A DNA stretch of 58,669 nucleotides from a virus. Below the pieces are notes generated by a model, which worked only from the letters and a program-made list of their open reading frames with translations, made no database searches and was not told the origin of the DNA. The position numbers and the translations under genes were made by a program. Positions 1,323-51,874 of the stretch are shown in pieces. Every line of letters begins with the position of its first letter. Positions within the stretch are counted from its first letter, which is position 1. The stretch spans positions 1 to 58,669 of IMG/VR virus record IMGVR_UViG_3300046804_003055; one strand, 5' to 3'.

Positions 1323-1713
1323 CTATAACTCTCTGCCTTAATTCGCTGGTGCTAAACGAATGCCGCCTTTTATTAAAATAAAATTCCATGGGAATATCGT
1401 GTCCTGTAAATTCTCGGCTTTGATATTCTTCGCCTAATATCCTAACATCAATAGGAAAAGAAAGCAACACATCTCGAAGTTCTTTTTCTGTAGCATAGAC
1501 CACAATTTCGTCCACAAACTTGCAGGCCTGTAGTTGTACATAGCGTTCAAAAATACTTTGTACAGGTTTATTTTTAGTGTCAGGCCTGTCAATGGTTGGA
1601 TCAGTTTGTAGGCCAACTATCAAATAATCGCATTGGGCTCGTGCTTCTTTAAGCATCATAATATGCCCTGCGTGAAACAGATCAAATGTTGAACAAGTAA
1701 ATCCTGTTCTCAT
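1309..1713 (-). CDS. Nucleotidyltransferase, cytidylyltransferase-like
   Basis: The 134-residue protein has the signature of the HxGH nucleotidyltransferase superfamily: a short first strand and then HAGH at residues 14-17 (FDLFHAGHIMMLKEAR). Near the C-terminus, FSTSELR resembles the ISTSxIR motif. Length and motifs match glycerol-3-phosphate cytidylyltransferase (TagD) and related single-domain enzymes, which move a nucleotidyl group from CTP or ATP onto a phosphorylated substrate. The substrate cannot be read from sequence. The start overlaps the stop of gene 46 as ATGA, and the gene lies inside the recombination/sigma operon, which gives no hint of a pathway. Confidence 0.8.
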   Translation of the reverse strand: MRTGFTCSTFDLFHAGHIMMLKEARAQCDYLIVGLQTDPTIDRPDTKNKPVQSIFERYVQLQACKFVDEIVVYATEKELRDVLLSFPIDVRILGEEYQSREFTGHDIPMEFYFNKRRHSFSTSELRQRVIDASR

Positions 1714-3485
1714 TCAGAAATCTCCAAGTCTGTAGCATAGCTGGTAAAACCGTTTTCTTTGATCACTTTGAGTACATTGTTAACACGACCAATTAGTTCG
1801 TCTTTGTGCGAAATTAAGAAAATGTTCTTCTTACGTCCTCGCGACATCTTCTTAAGAACTGCCAGTGCGCCTTCAACTCCGCTAGCATCTAAGCCGTTGT
1901 CAATCAGCTCGTCAACAAACAACAAGTTGATCTGTTGATATAAACTTTCCCATACATCACGGAATGCCCACGACAAGCCAAGAATTAGACGGTTTCGTTC
2001 CCCACGACTTAGATTATCAAAATCTAAATCTTGACCTAGCTGGGTAATTTCAACTGTTAGATCATTCTGGAATACCACGGTATGCGGCAAGCCCATCTTG
2101 TCCAAGTAATAGGTCAATCTATTATTAAGATATGCTAGGTTTTGATCTATGATCTTTTTACGAATAAAACTGTCTTTACTGGTTAATAATTTTAACAAAA
2201 ATTCTTGGTGTTCTTTAAGGTCATTGAGCGTGTTCACAGAATCCCAGGAAATTTCCTGCATGGCAGTATTGAGCAATTCGTCAATCTGCTCCTGATAAGG
2301 ATCTGTTTCGCCTGCTTTGACTGTCAACTGTGTTTCTAAACTTTTTAAATTATTTTGATGTTTTAGTGCTTCTTCTACTGTGTCATAGTAAGTGTCGGGC
2401 CTTAGGCCTAACTCGTCAATTTCTTTAATTTCCGACTGTATCTTGTAAAAGTCATTCATCAGTTTGGTAACATAGGCCTGCGCCTCATTCAAGTGATGCT
2501 GAGCCGTAGTCGTCATTTCAGTATGCTTGTGATCGTGTAGTTCTTGTTCACATGCGTGGCACTGCTTATTCGCCAACTTCATAAGCTCGCCGTTGTACTT
2601 CGTAACGCTTCGCTCTGCTTGCGCTATCGCGCTTTCTAACGTAGCACGTTCTTTTTCTAGGCTTTTCAGCTTCGCTGATTTTTCTAAGTACGCTTTCAGC
2701 GCGGCATGCTTTGCAAGTTCAGCATCAATATCTACATTTTCTAGCTCTACAATAGCTCTACCGATTTTTTCTAGTTCACTATCGTGTTGCGTATTCCATG
2801 CGTTTTGCCTTAGAATCAACGCATCAATACTTTGTTGTATTTTTTCATTAGATTTCTTAGCTGCCTCTATATCTGCTGTTTCTTGGAAAATAGCGTCTTT
2901 GGTTTCTTTAATTAATTCTTTTAAATTTTCAGCTTTTTCACTTAATAATGTTATTCCCAATAACTGCTCAATAATCAAACGTTGATCATTTGCCCGCATA
3001 CTTAAGAAAGGTTCTGTATATGTGTTTAGAGCTACAATATGTTTGAACATATCATGACTCATATCTAACAATGCATCAATGTCTTTTTGTGTTTCTCTAT
3101 TATCTCCTTGAGCATCGTCGGTTTCTTGGTCCTCTTGCTCAACTTCATTTACATAAAACTGGAGTATGTTAGGTTTACGCCCCCTCTCAATGCGATAATC
3201 TATGCCGTTCTTTTCAAAACTTAGCGTAACTAACATATTCTTATTGTTAATTTTATTAATAAGATTGTCTTTTTTAATGTTAGTTAGGGCATTACCGTAT
3301 AGTGCATAACTAAGAGCATTGACGATAGTAGTTTTACCTGTACCATTCCTTGAGCCCGAGTCATCCCCGCCCTGATCAAGATTTTCTCCTAATACAAGCG
3401 TTAAATTTTCTTTATCAAATTGTACAGCTTGGGTTTGATTACCCACACTCATAAAGTTTTTTACGGTTAATTCTTTGATTCTCAT
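1710..3485 (-). CDS. 46: Recombination endonuclease subunit gp46 (SbcC/Rad50-like ATPase)
   Basis: This 591-residue SMC-like ATPase has all landmarks of T4 gp46. The Walker A is GSRNGTGKT (residues 44-52). Long coiled coils flank a CHAC zinc hook (C309, C312). The ABC signature is LSRGER (492-497) and the Walker B is LLFVDE (521-526), followed by a D-loop region. It pairs with the gp47 nuclease to process DNA ends for recombination-dependent replication and host DNA breakdown. The start overlaps the end of gene 47 by four bases (ATGA), as expected for a stoichiometric complex. Length is close to T4 gp46 and no key motif is missing. Confidence 0.96.
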   Translation of the reverse strand: MRIKELTVKNFMSVGNQTQAVQFDKENLTLVLGENLDQGGDDSGSRNGTGKTTIVNALSYALYGNALTNIKKDNLINKINNKNMLVTLSFEKNGIDYRIERGRKPNILQFYVNEVEQEDQETDDAQGDNRETQKDIDALLDMSHDMFKHIVALNTYTEPFLSMRANDQRLIIEQLLGITLLSEKAENLKELIKETKDAIFQETADIEAAKKSNEKIQQSIDALILRQNAWNTQHDSELEKIGRAIVELENVDIDAELAKHAALKAYLEKSAKLKSLEKERATLESAIAQAERSVTKYNGELMKLANKQCHACEQELHDHKHTEMTTTAQHHLNEAQAYVTKLMNDFYKIQSEIKEIDELGLRPDTYYDTVEEALKHQNNLKSLETQLTVKAGETDPYQEQIDELLNTAMQEISWDSVNTLNDLKEHQEFLLKLLTSKDSFIRKKIIDQNLAYLNNRLTYYLDKMGLPHTVVFQNDLTVEITQLGQDLDFDNLSRGERNRLILGLSWAFRDVWESLYQQINLLFVDELIDNGLDASGVEGALAVLKKMSRGRKKNIFLISHKDELIGRVNNVLKVIKENGFTSYATDLEISE

Positions 3486-4495
3486 AGGCTGTTGTATATC
3501 TCCAACAGGGTGTTTTTATTATACTTGTCGCTATCAATGCTTACGATTTGACTAGATACAATTTGATCTACACTTTCAAACGCTTGTATGTCTATGTCAG
3601 TGCTAATCTCAACTTGTTTTTTTTCAGTTATTAAGGTAAGCTCTCGAATTTTGTATTGGGCCATGAAGTTTTCTTTGATAAAACTTGCTTCTTCATAGGT
3701 AATATCAATATCTAATGCCACACGTAAATGTTGTTTTGGTAATATAATACTATCCGCTTCGTCAATTAGCTGACTTAGTTTAACTGTGCGGAATGTAGGT
3801 TGGTCTGGCCAGCTATGATATTCTGGTTCCTTGCCCCATTCTAGTATCATCATGCCACGTTCATCGTCCCATGCATCTGCATAATTGTGCGGAAAAGCAT
3901 TGCCAATATAAATCATGTTTTGTTGTTGCTGACGCTTGTGAAAGTGTCCGCTAAAACCTAGTTCATAATTTTGAAAATCTTTTAATTGAATCTCGCCATG
4001 ATCTGGCATTTGCACCATTGCGTTCATAAAAAAGCTAGGTAATTCAAAGTGGCCAAAGATATACTTGCCACCTTTTTTGCCTACACTTTTCCATTCATCA
4101 CCTACAAGCCACGGACAGAGTGTAACATTCCCAACGGTAGTCGGTTCGTGGACCACTGTGATTCCGGGGATATATTTTCCAAACTCAACGGAGTGAATAT
4201 CCCGCTTGTCTTTGTAATACAAATCATGATTACCAGGGAAAAAGTAAAATGCATCAAACGCCTGACCGAGCTTTTCCAAGGCCCTAAGGCTATAGTCCAT
4301 AGTAGTGATATTAAGACTATTACGATTATGATGCCAATCGCCCATAAAAATTCCAACATCGCAACCTTCCTCCTTGGCCTTCCTAATATACCAATCTACA
4401 AAATCTTCGCAATCTTGATTGTGTACCGAGCTGTTAGATTTTAACCCAAAGTGTATGTCTGTAAAACAGGCAACTTTTTTAAACAAGTTTGTCAT
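3482..4495 (-). CDS. 47: Recombination endonuclease subunit gp47 (SbcD/Mre11-like nuclease)
   Basis: The 337-residue protein carries the full metallophosphoesterase set of the Mre11/SbcD family: DIH (13-15), GDWHH (52-56), GNHD (88-91), GHF with H149, and GHFH (183-186). These residues bind two metal ions in the nuclease centre. The protein forms the nuclease half of the gp46/gp47 complex that resects DNA ends. It is translationally coupled on both sides, overlapping gene 55 and gene 46 by four bases each. Length matches T4 gp47 and nothing appears damaged. Confidence 0.96.
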   Translation of the reverse strand: MTNLFKKVACFTDIHFGLKSNSSVHNQDCEDFVDWYIRKAKEEGCDVGIFMGDWHHNRNSLNITTMDYSLRALEKLGQAFDAFYFFPGNHDLYYKDKRDIHSVEFGKYIPGITVVHEPTTVGNVTLCPWLVGDEWKSVGKKGGKYIFGHFELPSFFMNAMVQMPDHGEIQLKDFQNYELGFSGHFHKRQQQQNMIYIGNAFPHNYADAWDDERGMMILEWGKEPEYHSWPDQPTFRTVKLSQLIDEADSIILPKQHLRVALDIDITYEEASFIKENFMAQYKIRELTLITEKKQVEISTDIDIQAFESVDQIVSSQIVSIDSDKYNKNTLLEIYNSL

Positions 4496-5319
4496 TCATG
4501 ATCCTCGTTATGGCGTTTTAATGCAGCCTCGTGCTCGCCTTGTCCGGTTCTACTGTAACTAGGATTCATACCGTTAATTTCTAAGATATCGTCACGAATA
4601 TTTTGATTACGCTTCTCAATATTAATAACACGAACAAAACTATTAGTAACGGCGGCAGTAAAATACGCAAAAGGATTATCAGATTTACTTTCATCAAATT
4701 GTAGTCCTATCTGTGTTAACTGTAAAATAGCCTGACCCTTCATCTCGTCGTTGTAGGTATATCCACGAACATTACCGCGGGTAGCATATCTTTCACATAA
4801 TTTAATCATCATTCGTGCTAGGTTATTAGTAATTTGCCCAGCATCTTTATCAAAATATCCTTTAGTTAAATCACCCTTCCAGTGACTTTTTCCAACACAT
4901 TCTAATTCTTCATTTTCATTAAATTTATAATGTTGAAATGGCGGAAAATTTACTTTATCCCTGTGATCAGCTGTGCTTTTTGGATTCTTTTTGCGTGTAT
5001 TGTTTAGCGGAATATGGTCATAAGTCATTATTCTAAAAACTAAATCCGTTTTAGGTATCTTTTTGTAGTCAATTTCACAATCTGCTTGTTTGACTTTTTC
5101 TCCAGCTTTGCGCCTAGAATCAAAAATTTCTAGTCCTAATCGCTTTGCTCGGTTTCGCTTGGCTTCCGCTATCGTTCTAATGTTAATCTTATCTACACTG
5201 GGTAAAATTATATCATATTGATGATATTCTGGTTTGGTAAAACTGCAATATGTACTTTTCGATTTGTGTATTTCTACTAACATGTCTTTATTATTAAGAT
5301 AGTTGACTTTAGTATTCAT
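4492..5319 (-). CDS. 55: Late-transcription sigma factor gp55, with long N-terminal extension
   Basis: The C-terminal part (about residues 155-260 of 275) matches gp55 of T4-like phages: a helical segment with ARMMIKLCERYATRG, then YNDEMKGQA, and NPFAYFT at 215-221 followed by a basic helix. gp55 replaces the host sigma factor on RNA polymerase and recognises the NATAAATA late promoters seen here. I start at the ATG at 5319, which follows AGGA at good distance. The frame is open further upstream, to a TTG at 5385, but that part lies inside the promoter 5341-5369 and would not be in the transcript. The remaining roughly 150 N-terminal residues have no counterpart in the 185-residue T4 protein and are unassigned. 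Confidence 0.9.
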   Translation of the reverse strand: MNTKVNYLNNKDMLVEIHKSKSTYCSFTKPEYHQYDIILPSVDKINIRTIAEAKRNRAKRLGLEIFDSRRKAGEKVKQADCEIDYKKIPKTDLVFRIMTYDHIPLNNTRKKNPKSTADHRDKVNFPPFQHYKFNENEELECVGKSHWKGDLTKGYFDKDAGQITNNLARMMIKLCERYATRGNVRGYTYNDEMKGQAILQLTQIGLQFDESKSDNPFAYFTAAVTNSFVRVINIEKRNQNIRDDILEINGMNPSYSRTGQGEHEAALKRHNEDHE

Positions 5320-5340
5320 GTAATCAATCCTATTTTGTAA

Positions 5341-5369
5341 ATTATAAACTATGCACTTAATAAAGTCAA
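5341..5369 (-). promoter_or_regulatory. Sigma70-type promoter for the gene 55-47-46 operon
   Basis: On the minus strand TTGACT (5364-5369) and TATAAT (5341-5346) are separated by exactly 17 bases. Only one base differs from the host housekeeping consensus. The ATG of gene 55 lies 22 bases beyond the -10 box. The -35 box shares base 5369 with the divergent late promoter. Confidence 0.85.
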
Positions 5370-5376
5370 ATAAATA
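5369..5376 (+). promoter_or_regulatory. Late promoter (AATAAATA) for the baseplate gene block
   Basis: AATAAATA followed by an AT-rich stretch and AAGGAAA before the ATG at 5398. The motif and spacing match the other late promoters in the window and the T4 late consensus TATAAATA except at the first base. Confidence 0.8.
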
Positions 5377-5397
5377 TATTACCAAAAAGGAAATATT

Positions 5398-6396
5398 ATG
5401 GGTTTATTAGACAGTAATTCAGCTTTGTCGGGTGCTACCAACCTAGTTAATAGTGTATCTGGAGCAGTAAATACAGGTGCTAATTTAGCCTCGGCTTTAG
5501 CTAAAGGATATGATGATGGCGACGTTTTGTCAGCAATTAGAGCTATCAATTTACCTGATGCAGGTGAAGCAATAGGAGACATAGCAGGTGCTTTAGCTAG
5601 TTTTGGTGGAGATGCTAATCCAGACGATTGGCGTGTAAGATTAAGCATGGCTAATTGGTCTGCTTTTAGATCCAGCCCTGTTTTAAAACCTTTAATAGAT
5701 GCGGGGGGTTTAATTTTTCCGTATACTCCTACTATTAGCCTTAATAATTCTGCAAAATATAGTGCAGTAAATGTAACTCATAGTAACTATCCTTTCCAAG
5801 CATTTCAATATAGCGACCCGGGCTCGATTCAAATCCAAGCACCAATGTATGTTGAAGACCCCTCACAAGGATTGTATTGGGTAGCAGCCTTGCATTATTT
5901 ACGTAGTCTTACAAAAATGTTTTCAGGAAATGATCCTAAAGCAGGAAACCCACCGCCTGTAGTCTTTCTAAATGGATATGGAAATTATGTTTTTAAAAAT
6001 ATACCAGTTGTTGTTACAAAAATTTCAGTCCAGCTAGAGAAAGATTGTGATTATTTAGGTGTAGATGTTGTAGGTAGTGCCGCCGGTGCCCTGGAAGGTA
6101 TTACAGAAGGTGTTTCGTCTTTGTCTGATAATGTTAGTAACCTCTTTCCAGGATCAGCTGTTTCGGCCGCAGCTGAGTCAATTAGTACTGTTGCGGGCAC
6201 AGTCGGCGGCTTTGCATCACTAGCTGGAACGTTTGGATTAGGCGGAACAATATCAGGCGGTGTTACCCACGTACCGACAAAGAGTAATTTTACTGTTGAC
6301 CTTCTACCTGTGTACAGCAGAGACAGTGTTCGCAAATTTAGCCTTGATAGATTTGTTGGCGGCGGATACTTAAACAATAATTTTGGATATATTTAA
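5398..6396 (+). CDS. Baseplate tail-tube junction protein, gp48/gp54-like
   Basis: This 332-residue virion protein has an alanine/glycine-rich N-terminus, then a core with FPYTPTI (near 107), THSNYPFQAFQYS (near 128), YWVAALHYLRSLTKMF and PPPVVFLNGYG. These are typical of tail-tube-like proteins that cap the baseplate in T4-like phages. The next gene is gp53, and gp5, gp25 and gp6 follow, so the position also fits gp48 or gp54, which start tail-tube polymerisation on the hub. A second glycine/serine-rich stretch interrupts the C-terminal part. I cannot decide between gp48 and gp54, so no symbol is given. It is the first gene after the late promoter at 5369. Confidence 0.75.
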   Translation: MGLLDSNSALSGATNLVNSVSGAVNTGANLASALAKGYDDGDVLSAIRAINLPDAGEAIGDIAGALASFGGDANPDDWRVRLSMANWSAFRSSPVLKPLIDAGGLIFPYTPTISLNNSAKYSAVNVTHSNYPFQAFQYSDPGSIQIQAPMYVEDPSQGLYWVAALHYLRSLTKMFSGNDPKAGNPPPVVFLNGYGNYVFKNIPVVVTKISVQLEKDCDYLGVDVVGSAAGALEGITEGVSSLSDNVSNLFPGSAVSAAAESISTVAGTVGGFASLAGTFGLGGTISGGVTHVPTKSNFTVDLLPVYSRDSVRKFSLDRFVGGGYLNNNFGYI

Positions 6397-10405: not shown

Positions 10406-10843
10406 ATGGCTTCTACAATATATTCCAAACCAGTAGTTACATCCGTAAACAATATTAATACGCCCTCTATGATGATGTATAGGGGATTTAGTACAGTTAG
10501 CTCTAATACACAGAACTATAGTCTTTATGATTTAGAGTTAATTAAACAAGATTTGTTAAATCATTTTTATGTAAGAAAAGGTGAGCGCTTGATGAATCCT
10601 CGCTTTGGCACAATTATATGGGATTTGTTATTTGAACCCCTTACTGAACAAATTAAAAATTTAATAATACAAAATGTGAACGAAATACTAAATTTTGATC
10701 CTAGAATAAGCGCAGGAAATATCATAGTAACACAATATGATACTGGATTACAAATAGAATGTAGCTTAAAATATTTGTCTTATAATTTAACTGAAAATTT
10801 GAAAATACAATTCGACCAAAATAACAATTTAATGATATCTTAA
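10406..10843 (+). CDS. 25: Baseplate wedge subunit gp25
   Basis: The 145-residue protein matches gp25: after a variable N-terminus it has DLELIKQDLLNHFYVRKGER, then the core NPRFGTIIWDLLFEPLTE, with the glutamate-proline pair of the EPR-type motif, and a C-terminal beta segment. gp25 lies in the core bundle of each wedge and starts sheath assembly. It follows gp5 by five bases with AAAGGA before its ATG. It is the last gene before the next late promoter. Confidence 0.92.
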   Translation: MASTIYSKPVVTSVNNINTPSMMMYRGFSTVSSNTQNYSLYDLELIKQDLLNHFYVRKGERLMNPRFGTIIWDLLFEPLTEQIKNLIIQNVNEILNFDPRISAGNIIVTQYDTGLQIECSLKYLSYNLTENLKIQFDQNNNLMIS

Positions 10844-10863
10844 ACTACGCATATTATTTTTCA

Positions 10864-10871
10864 AATAAATA
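10864..10871 (+). promoter_or_regulatory. Late promoter (AATAAATA) before gp6
   Basis: AATAAATA within an AT-rich intergenic segment, 18 bases before the gp6 ATG at 10890. A good ribosome site (AGGAAT) lies between them. Confidence 0.75.
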
Positions 10872-33532: not shown

Positions 33533-33558
33533 CCTTTATATTAGCAGTTAATAAAACA

Positions 33559-33566
33559 CATAAATA
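33559..33566 (+). promoter_or_regulatory. Late promoter (CATAAATA)
   Basis: CATAAATA lies 19 bases before the ATG at 33586, with AGAGAGA between as ribosome site. It would start the transcript for the structural gene at 33586 and the fibre genes after it. Confidence 0.75.
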
Positions 33567-33585: not shown

Positions 33586-34194
33586 ATGCAAACGAAAGAA
33601 CAAACTGGAGTGTATATAAGAGGACATATTAAAATACATGATCCTAGCACACAAGAGATTTTTGTAGACAAAAGTAATGCTATTCATTATGAAAACATGA
33701 GTATAGCGTTGGCTCAAAGTATAGCAAATAGTGGCAACGGATTTATATATAATATGGCTTTTGGCAATGGCGGAACTGCCGTTGATCCTACAGGAATAAT
33801 AACTTACTTGACTCCAAATACATCTGGCACTAACGCAAGTTTGTATAATCAAACATACAGTAAAATAGTAAATCAAACGTCAAGCTCAAATAATGATCCA
33901 ACAAGAAATTTTGTAGAAACACGCCATTTGACAGGTCAAAATTATACTGATGTGTTTGTTACATGTTTTTTAGATTACGGGGAACCAACCGGACAAAGCG
34001 CATATGATACTACAACAGCAGGAGAAAGTGCTTATGTATTTGATGAATTGGGTTTACAAACTTTAGATTCTTCAGGTAATGTAATGCTACTTACTCATGT
34101 AATTTTTCATCCGGTCTTAAAAAGTTTAAATCGATTAATTCAAATTGATTATACTGTAAGAATTCAAAGTTTAACCGGTTTGGTAGGAGCATAA
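33586..34194 (+). CDS. Virion structural protein of T4-like phages
   Basis: The 202-residue protein has no membrane segment or enzyme motif. It shows [20 protein letters not shown] near the N-terminus, an [20 protein letters not shown] segment, and a C-terminal beta region ([20 protein letters not shown]). Comparable proteins of about 200 residues lie between baseplate and fibre genes in other aquatic T4-like phages and are annotated as structural. The exact role is not known to me. It is first after a late promoter and ends one base before the next fibre gene, so it belongs to the fibre block. Confidence 0.65.
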
Positions 34195-50734: not shown

Positions 50735-50763
50735 ATTATAACAGGACCCACAGGTCCTGTCAA
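50735..50763 (-). promoter_or_regulatory. Consensus sigma70 promoter for the VWA-to-thyX operon
   Basis: On the minus strand TTGACA (50758-50763) and TATAAT (50735-50740) match the consensus in all twelve positions with a 17-base spacer. Nearly the whole spacer is an inverted repeat (50741-50760). The leader up to the ATG at 50707 contains TAGGAAA as ribosome site. Confidence 0.92.
50741..50760 (-). terminator. Hairpin in promoter spacer; terminator and/or operator
   Basis: Eight base pairs, ACAGGACC with GGTCCTGT, enclose a four-base loop. Read as RNA from the MoxR gene on the same strand, the hairpin begins about 20 bases after the stop codon and is followed by TATAATTT, a weak T tract, so it could end the MoxR transcript. 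As DNA it fills the spacer of the next promoter and could be an operator for a dimeric repressor. Both uses are inference. Confidence 0.6.
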
Positions 50764-50779
50764 TTAACTTTCCATCGAT

Positions 50780-51874
50780 TTACTTTTCAGTTGCGGCTGA
50801 AATATATTTACCGAACTTGGCATGGAAGTCATCAAAGCAGGCAATTTCGTCCGGATCCAATGGTAATTTGTACTGGCTAAGAGCAACTTTTGTACCCATA
50901 ATAACAAGCTCAGTTTCAAAATTATCCATCATAAAACTGAAGAAGTTGTTAACTTGACTATTCCAAAATTTGTTAGAACCATTCTTATCACAAGAATCTT
51001 TTAGCTCATAGCAAAGGCTAATAACCAAGGAATATTGTGCTGAAATCTCTTTAGATTCCATCTTCTTAACCTTACCACTCAAAATGTCAGAGGGGTTAGG
51101 CATCTTACTGGCGTGTTTACGGTGAGCCATAAACTTAACAGCAAGTCCTTCACCAATTGAACCACTTACTAAGTCTGTAAGTGTATCGGTATCTACGTCG
51201 TCATCTGTAAGAAGTTCGCTTACAAATGACCAAGAGCGAGGTGTAGCAAATGCTCTCGAGCCTGACTTAGGATCAAAGTCGTACAGGTCTTTTTTGCTGA
51301 AAGAAAGGAAACCTACAACATCTTTATGGATTTTGTTTTCAGTAGCCCACTCAAAGTAGTCATCAAAGTCAACTGCCATTTCCAAGTGAACAAAACGGTT
51401 AGCCAACGGAGCAGGCATACGATAAGTAACACCCTTATCACTTTCACGGTTACCCGCCGCTACCATAACAACATTGTCTGGCAATTCGTATGCACCGACT
51501 TTGCGATTGAGAACGAGCTGATAGGCCGCCGCCTGTACAGCAGGAGCCGCAGAGTTCATTTCGTCCATGAACAGAACAATGTTTTTGTGCTTAGACGCCA
51601 TTTCTGCATCAGGCAGTTCGGCAGGCGGAGCCCAAACCATTTTACTAGTGTTTGAGTCAAAGTATGGAATGCCTTTAATATCTGTCGGCTCCCACAAGCT
51701 CAAACGAACATCAATAACGTGCGCATTAAGTTCGGAACCTAATTGCTTAATAATGTCCGATTTACCAATACCTGGAGGACCCCACAAGAAAATTGGGCGT
51801 TTGTTTTTGAATGCTTTACGTAGGGACTTTTTTGCATTTTTCGGTCCAACTGTACGACTGATAATTTCTGCCAT
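50780..51874 (-). CDS. MoxR-family AAA+ ATPase
   Basis: A 364-residue AAA+ protein: Walker A GPPGIGKS (32-39), Walker B LFMDE (101-105), sensor 1 asparagine N142 in AAGNRES, and a candidate arginine finger R160 in MPAPLANRF. The order and lack of other domains fit the MoxR group, ATP-driven chaperones that work with a VWA-domain partner. That partner is the next gene. The phage process served, such as replication, host takeover or particle assembly, cannot be read from sequence. It has its own TTGACA/TATAAT promoter and a leader ending in TAGGAAACACAATGGCA, almost identical to that of the VWA gene, so both are probably expressed together early. Confidence 0.9.
   Translation of the reverse strand: MAEIISRTVGPKNAKKSLRKAFKNKRPIFLWGPPGIGKSDIIKQLGSELNAHVIDVRLSLWEPTDIKGIPYFDSNTSKMVWAPPAELPDAEMASKHKNIVLFMDEMNSAAPAVQAAAYQLVLNRKVGAYELPDNVVMVAAGNRESDKGVTYRMPAPLANRFVHLEMAVDFDDYFEWATENKIHKDVVGFLSFSKKDLYDFDPKSGSRAFATPRSWSFVSELLTDDDVDTDTLTDLVSGSIGEGLAVKFMAHRKHASKMPNPSDILSGKVKKMESKEISAQYSLVISLCYELKDSCDKNGSNKFWNSQVNNFFSFMMDNFETELVIMGTKVALSQYKLPLDPDEIACFDDFHAKFGKYISAATEK

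Follow-up and report, generated by a model that had tools for sequence, protein, structure and literature searches.

Phage T4 late promoters lack any upstream or -35 element, and the co-activator gp33 does not itself read DNA (PMC2988020). By T4 convention, the late -10 element lies at -13 to -6 (PMC1524935). Aeh1 has CTAAATA as its late motif, and other phages have A or T at -13 (PMC1524935); the motif is ATAAATA in the jumbo phages CBB and GAP32 (PMC5259590) and NATAAATA in S-PM2 (PMC2984593). Sites for the non-essential T4 protein DsbA, which are A/T-rich and bound weakly, overlap two T4 late promoters (PMC2988020). How T4-like phages silence the late sigma factor that they encode has been little explored, as has any sorting of their late genes into sub-regulons.

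We analyzed a 58.7-kb IMG/VR fragment of a T4-related phage (34.5% GC), hereafter the window. Gene 55 lies at 4492-5319 on the minus strand, with its ATG at 5319 and a Shine-Dalgarno sequence AGGA at 5328-5331(-). Its 275-aa product is a T4-type late sigma factor, gp55 (phrog_12791, E=4e-77; phrog_234, E=1e-24), whose closest named relatives, at ~48% identity, belong to the Pseudomonas phage PA5oct/Paride group. Against the PDB, T4 gp55 (7d7c_F) was the sole sequence match and the top fold match, over sigma region 2. Residues ~25-145 make up an additional ~120-residue domain, confidently modelled with pLDDT mostly above 90, for which the PDB fold search gave nothing significant outside sigma region 2. 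Downstream of the gene 55 promoter, and co-directional with gene 55, are a gp47-like (SbcD-like) nuclease gene (3482-4495(-); phrog_100, E=2e-64) and a gp46-like (SbcC-like) gene (1710-3485(-)), the latter assigned from its ORF and from gene order in relatives. Divergently, across a 78-bp intergenic region, a virion operon starts at 5398(+). Its first gene (5398-6396(+)) encodes a virion structural protein and has a Shine-Dalgarno sequence AAGGA at 5387-5391(+), and a gp53-like baseplate wedge gene comes second (profile matches for the two: phrog_12050 and phrog_7145); hub/lysozyme and gp25-like genes follow. The same divergent order of gene 55 and virion operon is found in Paride, 121Q and Vibrio 2.275.O.

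An earlier note on this DNA had placed the -35 box of a sigma70-type gene 55 promoter at 5364-5369, and our analysis agrees. The promoter (5341-5369(-)) consists of the -35 box TTGACT at 5364-5369(-), a 17-bp spacer and the -10 box TATAAT at 5341-5346(-). It ranks with the best sigma70-type matches of the window and stands 15-25 nt upstream of gp55. It combines a TTGACA-like -35 box, a spacer within 16-18 bp, a TATAAT-like -10 box and a gene downstream. TTGAC is kept in 71 of 72 distinct relatives, and the spacing is invariant across 80 loci. With usual sigma70 spacing, the transcript is predicted to start at ~5334. Elsewhere in the window, the 17-bp spacer of another promoter, TTGACAGGACCTGTGGGTCCTGTTATAAT at 50735-50763(-), is a perfect hairpin (AGGACC/GGTCCT). 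This promoter comes just after the stop of the ORF at 50780-51874(-); a sigma70 promoter and a hairpin resembling a terminator are here merged into one, and hairpin-spacer promoters with other stems occur in G008, G010 and G012.

On the opposite strand, the late -10 element AATAAATA occupies 5369-5376(+), 21 nt upstream of the structural-gene ATG at 5398. It has the TATAAATA-like form of T4-type late promoters (N/R ATAAATA, CTAAATA, at -13 to -6), it precedes virion genes behind a short leader, and the phage encodes a gp55 by profile (phrog_12791, 4e-77) and by sequence and fold (7d7c_F). The earlier note had assigned this element to the virion genes, which is borne out by the AAGGA and ATG behind it and by motif enrichment and position. 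Taking the window together with five related contigs, no frequent 7-mer ahead of ORF starts is more over-represented than ATAAATA, with 68 occurrences against 1.75 expected (39-fold), which speaks against chance. CTAAATA is likewise enriched (17 against 1.18 expected), and 15-30 nt upstream of genes no motif ranks above [AC]TAAATA. Under the T4 convention the late start is predicted at ~5382, and homology and conservation suggest that gp55 would bind here. On the minus strand, from 52663 down to 52630, one further late element of the window, ATAAATA, is followed by the leader TATGCGTAGATAATGAGGATACGCATATG. In this leader the putative stem TATGCGTA/TACGCATA encloses the Shine-Dalgarno sequence and extends as far as the start codon, so it might act as a translational hairpin; similar arms are present in G008 (6147) and G010 (10270).

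A distance of 48 bp separates the predicted gene 55 start from the predicted late start, with the two promoters standing back to back on the same DNA. Base 5369 is common to the sigma70 -35 box and the late -10 element, exactly as the earlier note had it. Since other late promoters prefer a purine at the equivalent position, both promoters are served by the A that pairs with the first T in TTGAC. Sequence and conservation support both promoter identities, and with them the assignment of the sigma70 promoter to gp55.

We determined how far this arrangement is conserved using gp55-based retrieval, which yielded 80 IMG/VR loci. The junction was contained in 79 of these, which together with the window form the analyzed set of 80 loci and 72 distinct junction sequences. 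TTGA[C/T]-N-17-TATNNT is present in all 79 and in the window. The sigma70 spacer is 17 bp throughout, and the late 7-mer directly adjoins TTGA in 79/80 loci; in L079 the junction is 1 bp shorter and both elements survive via one more common base. Across the 72 distinct sequences the conserved block is sharp-edged, running from the end of the late element to the -10 box, exactly 5341-5376 (36 bp). Mean identity to the window is 87% in the block and 78% in its 17-bp spacer, but 44% in the flanks and 38% at four-fold sites of gp55, and neutral sites are saturated across equal distances. The difference between the block and the four-fold sites indicates selective conservation and not recent ancestry.

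The block is also specific to gene 55. TATTTA[G/T]TTGAC occurs in one copy each in 15 of 16 related contigs, while G004 has TTGAT there. In the 372-kb G001, the fused motif is found once, at gp55, among 31 TTGAC-18-TATAAT sites. Since there is a single copy per genome, the 36-bp block is not a generic promoter flank. In an IMG/VR scan with the fused pattern, at least 97 of the 120 matches listed have gp55 downstream by HMM, against 4 of the 90 matches listed for a shifted control pattern. Also among the matches listed, L411, L448, L451, L461 and L469 have a like spacer next to a contig edge that precludes gp55 scoring. A generic sigma70 or early-promoter feature was considered for the conserved spacer and rejected, since other TTGAC-18-TATAAT sites in these genomes have spacers of unrelated sequence.

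Conservation of the overlap, on which the earlier note had staked its reading, holds within the clade but stops at the Paride-like sister clade. There, both promoters are present but separated (by ~22 bp in Paride), and the flanks of the gp55 promoter differ. The separated arrangement is also found, for example, in L360, L361 and L363-L365. The overlap is therefore clade-specific, and this gene order can do without superposition. The late element on the gp54 side in Paride is ATAAATA, with no upstream element recognizable by eye at the equal offset. The Atu_ph07 junction (TATTTAGTTGACA) has no -10 box at 17 bp, and Atu_ph07 gp55 used as a probe retrieved itself only. Judged from these sequences, superposition is a property of a large clade of uncultured T4-like phages, in which gp55 is at least ~73% identical to that of the window.

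Two independent promoters might simply have been packed into an intergenic region of only 78 bp, each conserved for itself and overlapping without regulatory consequence. The internal spacing of each promoter is fixed, so once overlapped their register would persist. However, the distances from the block to the start codons vary on both sides whereas the register between the promoters is constant, and this register is kept in 79/80 clade loci although separated arrangements are viable in relatives. We therefore consider mere packing unlikely.

The earlier note described the late promoter as an 8-bp -10 element that touches the -35 box by one base. This contact is real, but the complete late promoter is larger, because an upstream element at 5344-5361(+), ATAAACTATGCACTTAAT, had been missed. 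This 18-bp element lies inside the sigma70 spacer region, ~-38 to -21 from the predicted late start, and has the form ATAAACTACGCACwTAAT (junction stretch ACTACGCAC). The late promoter is thus bipartite and covers nearly the whole sigma70 promoter, so that an overlap of one base understates its span. The -35 box falls between the upstream element and the late -10 element, and the -10 box falls on the outer edge of the upstream element.

The same element precedes two other late promoters. A second copy, TTAAACTACGCATATTAT, lies at 10840-10857(+) upstream of the late element of the gp6 operon (10865-10871(+)), as identified by PWM match and family conservation. A third, degenerate copy, TTTATATTAGCAGTTAAT at 33535-33552(+), is weak in the window and is recognized through the family consensus ATTAAACTAGCACATTAT of 65 distinct relatives; it precedes the late element at 33560-33566(+) of the tail gene at 33586-34194 (phrog_11259). 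The positions of both late elements are given by the motif and by family alignment. When orthologous promoters were aligned on ATAAATA, the consensus was ATaAA.TaCgcAcaTAAT at gp6 (n=71 distinct) and attAAA.tagcA.aTtAt at the 33586 gene (n=65 distinct), in both cases at -26 to -9 from the 7-mer. The gp55 junction consensus, ATAAacTAcGCActTaAt, has the identical offset. Conservation at the gp6 and 33586 promoters is limited to the upstream element and ATAAATA; GTCAA (TTGAC) and ATTATA (TATAAT) are not kept and neither gene has a sigma70 promoter there. Because the conserved spacer is the upstream element of a late promoter, the sigma70 promoter is embedded in a bipartite late promoter.

These promoters also bear on whether TATTTA is a mere flank of a strong sigma70 promoter (UP-like or a phage-early extension), with no late promoter at all. 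TATTTA does adjoin the -35 box directly upstream. However, it is absent from other sigma70 promoters of the same phages, [AC]TAAATA is the top motif 15-30 nt upstream of genes, and gp6 and 33586 show this bipartite signal where there is no sigma70 promoter. We regard this reading as highly improbable.

A PWM trained on gp6 promoters only gave scores of more than 10 bits to 70 of the 72 distinct gp55 junctions, including the window at 20.0 bits, while the best of 427 control ATAAATA-like (TAAATA) sites away from gene starts reached 6.5 bits. The element marks few late promoters per genome. Of the late promoters that have a gene start, it is present at 3 of 43 in G017 (345 kb; 24.7, 24.5 and 18.0 bits; next 2.5) and at 3 of 16 in G021 (165 kb; 27.4, 26.8 and 22.6 bits; next 7.6). 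Most other late promoters in these phages conform to the T4 pattern of no sequence-specific upstream element, from which the baseplate promoter and two others depart. A possible fourth site, with scores of 15.8 and 14.8 in these two genomes, lies 5 nt before an ORF of 330-390 aa. These sites lie on the minus strand at G017:C1:34783 (L599) and G021:C1:7066 (L616), and in G021 the element-like sequence is reversed. The ORF that begins 5 nt after the late element in both may be a leaderless late tail-protein gene, and in G021 it comes after a tail-tube-like ORF; these tail assignments come from reading the sequences and not from database matches.

What might read the element? We first favored a private gp55 operator, as the spacer is palindromic, an idea superseded by the in-register copies at the gp6 and 33586 late promoters. 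A role as RNA structure is unlikely, as the element is transcribed from neither promoter at the gp55 junction. A broader alternative is that the 18-bp element is a repressor site, for a phage or host protein restraining gp55 and the tail operons at some stage, with polymerase occlusion secondary. In favor of an operator, the element is imperfectly palindromic, more so about centre 16.5 than about any other, with weak co-variation at one pair (p=0.012). It sits within the gp55 promoter, after the -35 box and before the -10 box, outside both transcripts there, and it is found again at only three or four tail promoters. Conversely, an early repressor would also block gp55, which is required for late transcription, and an activator site or a -35 contact would fit just as well at a position immediately upstream of a late -10 element. 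We judge a repressor site to be an improbable primary role.

Within genomes, the gp55-junction and gp6 copies are more alike than between genomes (14.6/20 against 13.6/20; 0/5000 shuffles; n=21; phylogeny not controlled), which suggests one common reader. We tentatively propose, as a possibility well short of an even chance, a class of bipartite late promoters reserved for three or four tail and baseplate operons. Its -35-region element would have as its reader either a phage factor not yet described or the additional domain (~120 residues) of gp55, and because the element also lies between the two boxes of the gp55 promoter, this reader would act both as tail-gene activator and as gp55 repressor. 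A DsbA homologue is a candidate reader and nothing more, and the modelled extra domain of gp55 is a second candidate. The DsbA homologue is encoded at G001:C1:166666-166890 (L142 6654-6908; phrog_639, 6e-13), where it adjoins a DNA polymerase-like ORF and has a TTGAC-18-TATAAT just upstream (166941-166969). A search for gp33 (phrog_254) gave no match in seven related contigs, while the T4 control matched; the window itself is a fragment. Searches of the related contigs for MotA (PF09158) and gp45 (PF09116) gave no match, and no control matched either.

With somewhat better than even confidence, we consider the block at 5341-5376 to be a superposed bidirectional control region, in which an early/late takeover shuts off gp55. 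Leftward, a strong host-type sigma70 promoter would drive gene 55 and the downstream 47/46-like genes. Rightward, a bipartite late promoter, with its 18-bp element in the -35 region and a gp55-type -10 element ATAAATA, would drive the baseplate operon. Early in infection, gp55 would be made by the host RNA polymerase holoenzyme. Later, gp55-polymerase would take over the same DNA, probably aided by a factor reading the upstream element, so that switching on the baseplate genes would switch off gp55 and the downstream 47/46-like genes. The blocking of the gene 55 promoter foreseen in the earlier note stands on geometry, in that two RNA polymerases cannot occupy both promoters. The recognition elements of each promoter all sit within the footprint of the other, so occupancy is exclusive, and mutually exclusive use of the gp55 and baseplate promoters is nearly forced. 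Negative feedback on gp55 is plausible from this layout, and a regulator of the upstream element may outweigh simple occlusion. The exclusion might instead work mainly in the other direction, with sigma70 polymerase at the gp55 promoter silencing the baseplate promoter early. The gp55 promoter is near consensus (TTGACT-17-TATAAT), and high early occupancy is therefore expected. However, late promoters require gp55 regardless, which makes an extra early lock seem redundant, and other late promoters do without one. We find such an early gate distinctly less credible than the takeover that shuts off gp55, and doubt it strongly.

The locus resembles the T4 gp55/gp33/gp45 system in its gp55-type sigma factor, TATAAATA-like -10 octamer and short Shine-Dalgarno leaders, and most late genes here have the -10 octamer alone, as in T4. 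Unlike T4, a subset of late promoters has a conserved 18-bp element at ~-38 to -21, and gene 55, which in T4 sits in a long co-directional gene run, is divergent from the baseplate operon. CBB and GAP32 share ATAAATA before structural genes and a gp55-like sigma factor, and no gp33 or gp45 was found there; no upstream element is reported for them, and the CBB gp55 gene lies behind another promoter type (TGAAACG/TATA) (PMC5259590). In RB49 and cyanophages, early- and late-type promoters are likewise paired to time a gene class, but those pairs drive the same gene, whereas the promoters here are divergent, serve opposite phases, and one yields the sigma factor of the other (PMC2984593). As with the T4 DsbA sites, sequence-specific sites overlap a few late promoters, and the 372-kb G001 has a DsbA homologue; DsbA is no more than a candidate reader here, and its T4 sites are A/T-rich and weak. 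In the literature we came upon no account of an upstream element in late promoters, nor of a gp55/late overlap, a weak absence given that subscription papers were outside the scope of the search. No earlier report was thus found of the bipartite late promoter or of the small tail regulon under it. They suggest that late transcription of the T4 type can draw on a sequence-specific element in the -35 region, against the T4 textbook case. Opposite promoters whose recognition elements share DNA, here base 5369 and the upstream element within the sigma70 spacer, also form overlapping divergent switches such as that of plasmid pLS20 conjugation, where divergent promoters on common DNA switch by mutual exclusion, as those here would (PMC4207663). 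Unlike pLS20, two different sigma factors are involved here, one of them the product of the other promoter. The early/late promoter logic itself is already known, and the superposed form is a conserved variation on it, in which one 36-bp block, conserved in many phages, would couple synthesis of the late sigma factor to transcription of the baseplate genes that it serves.
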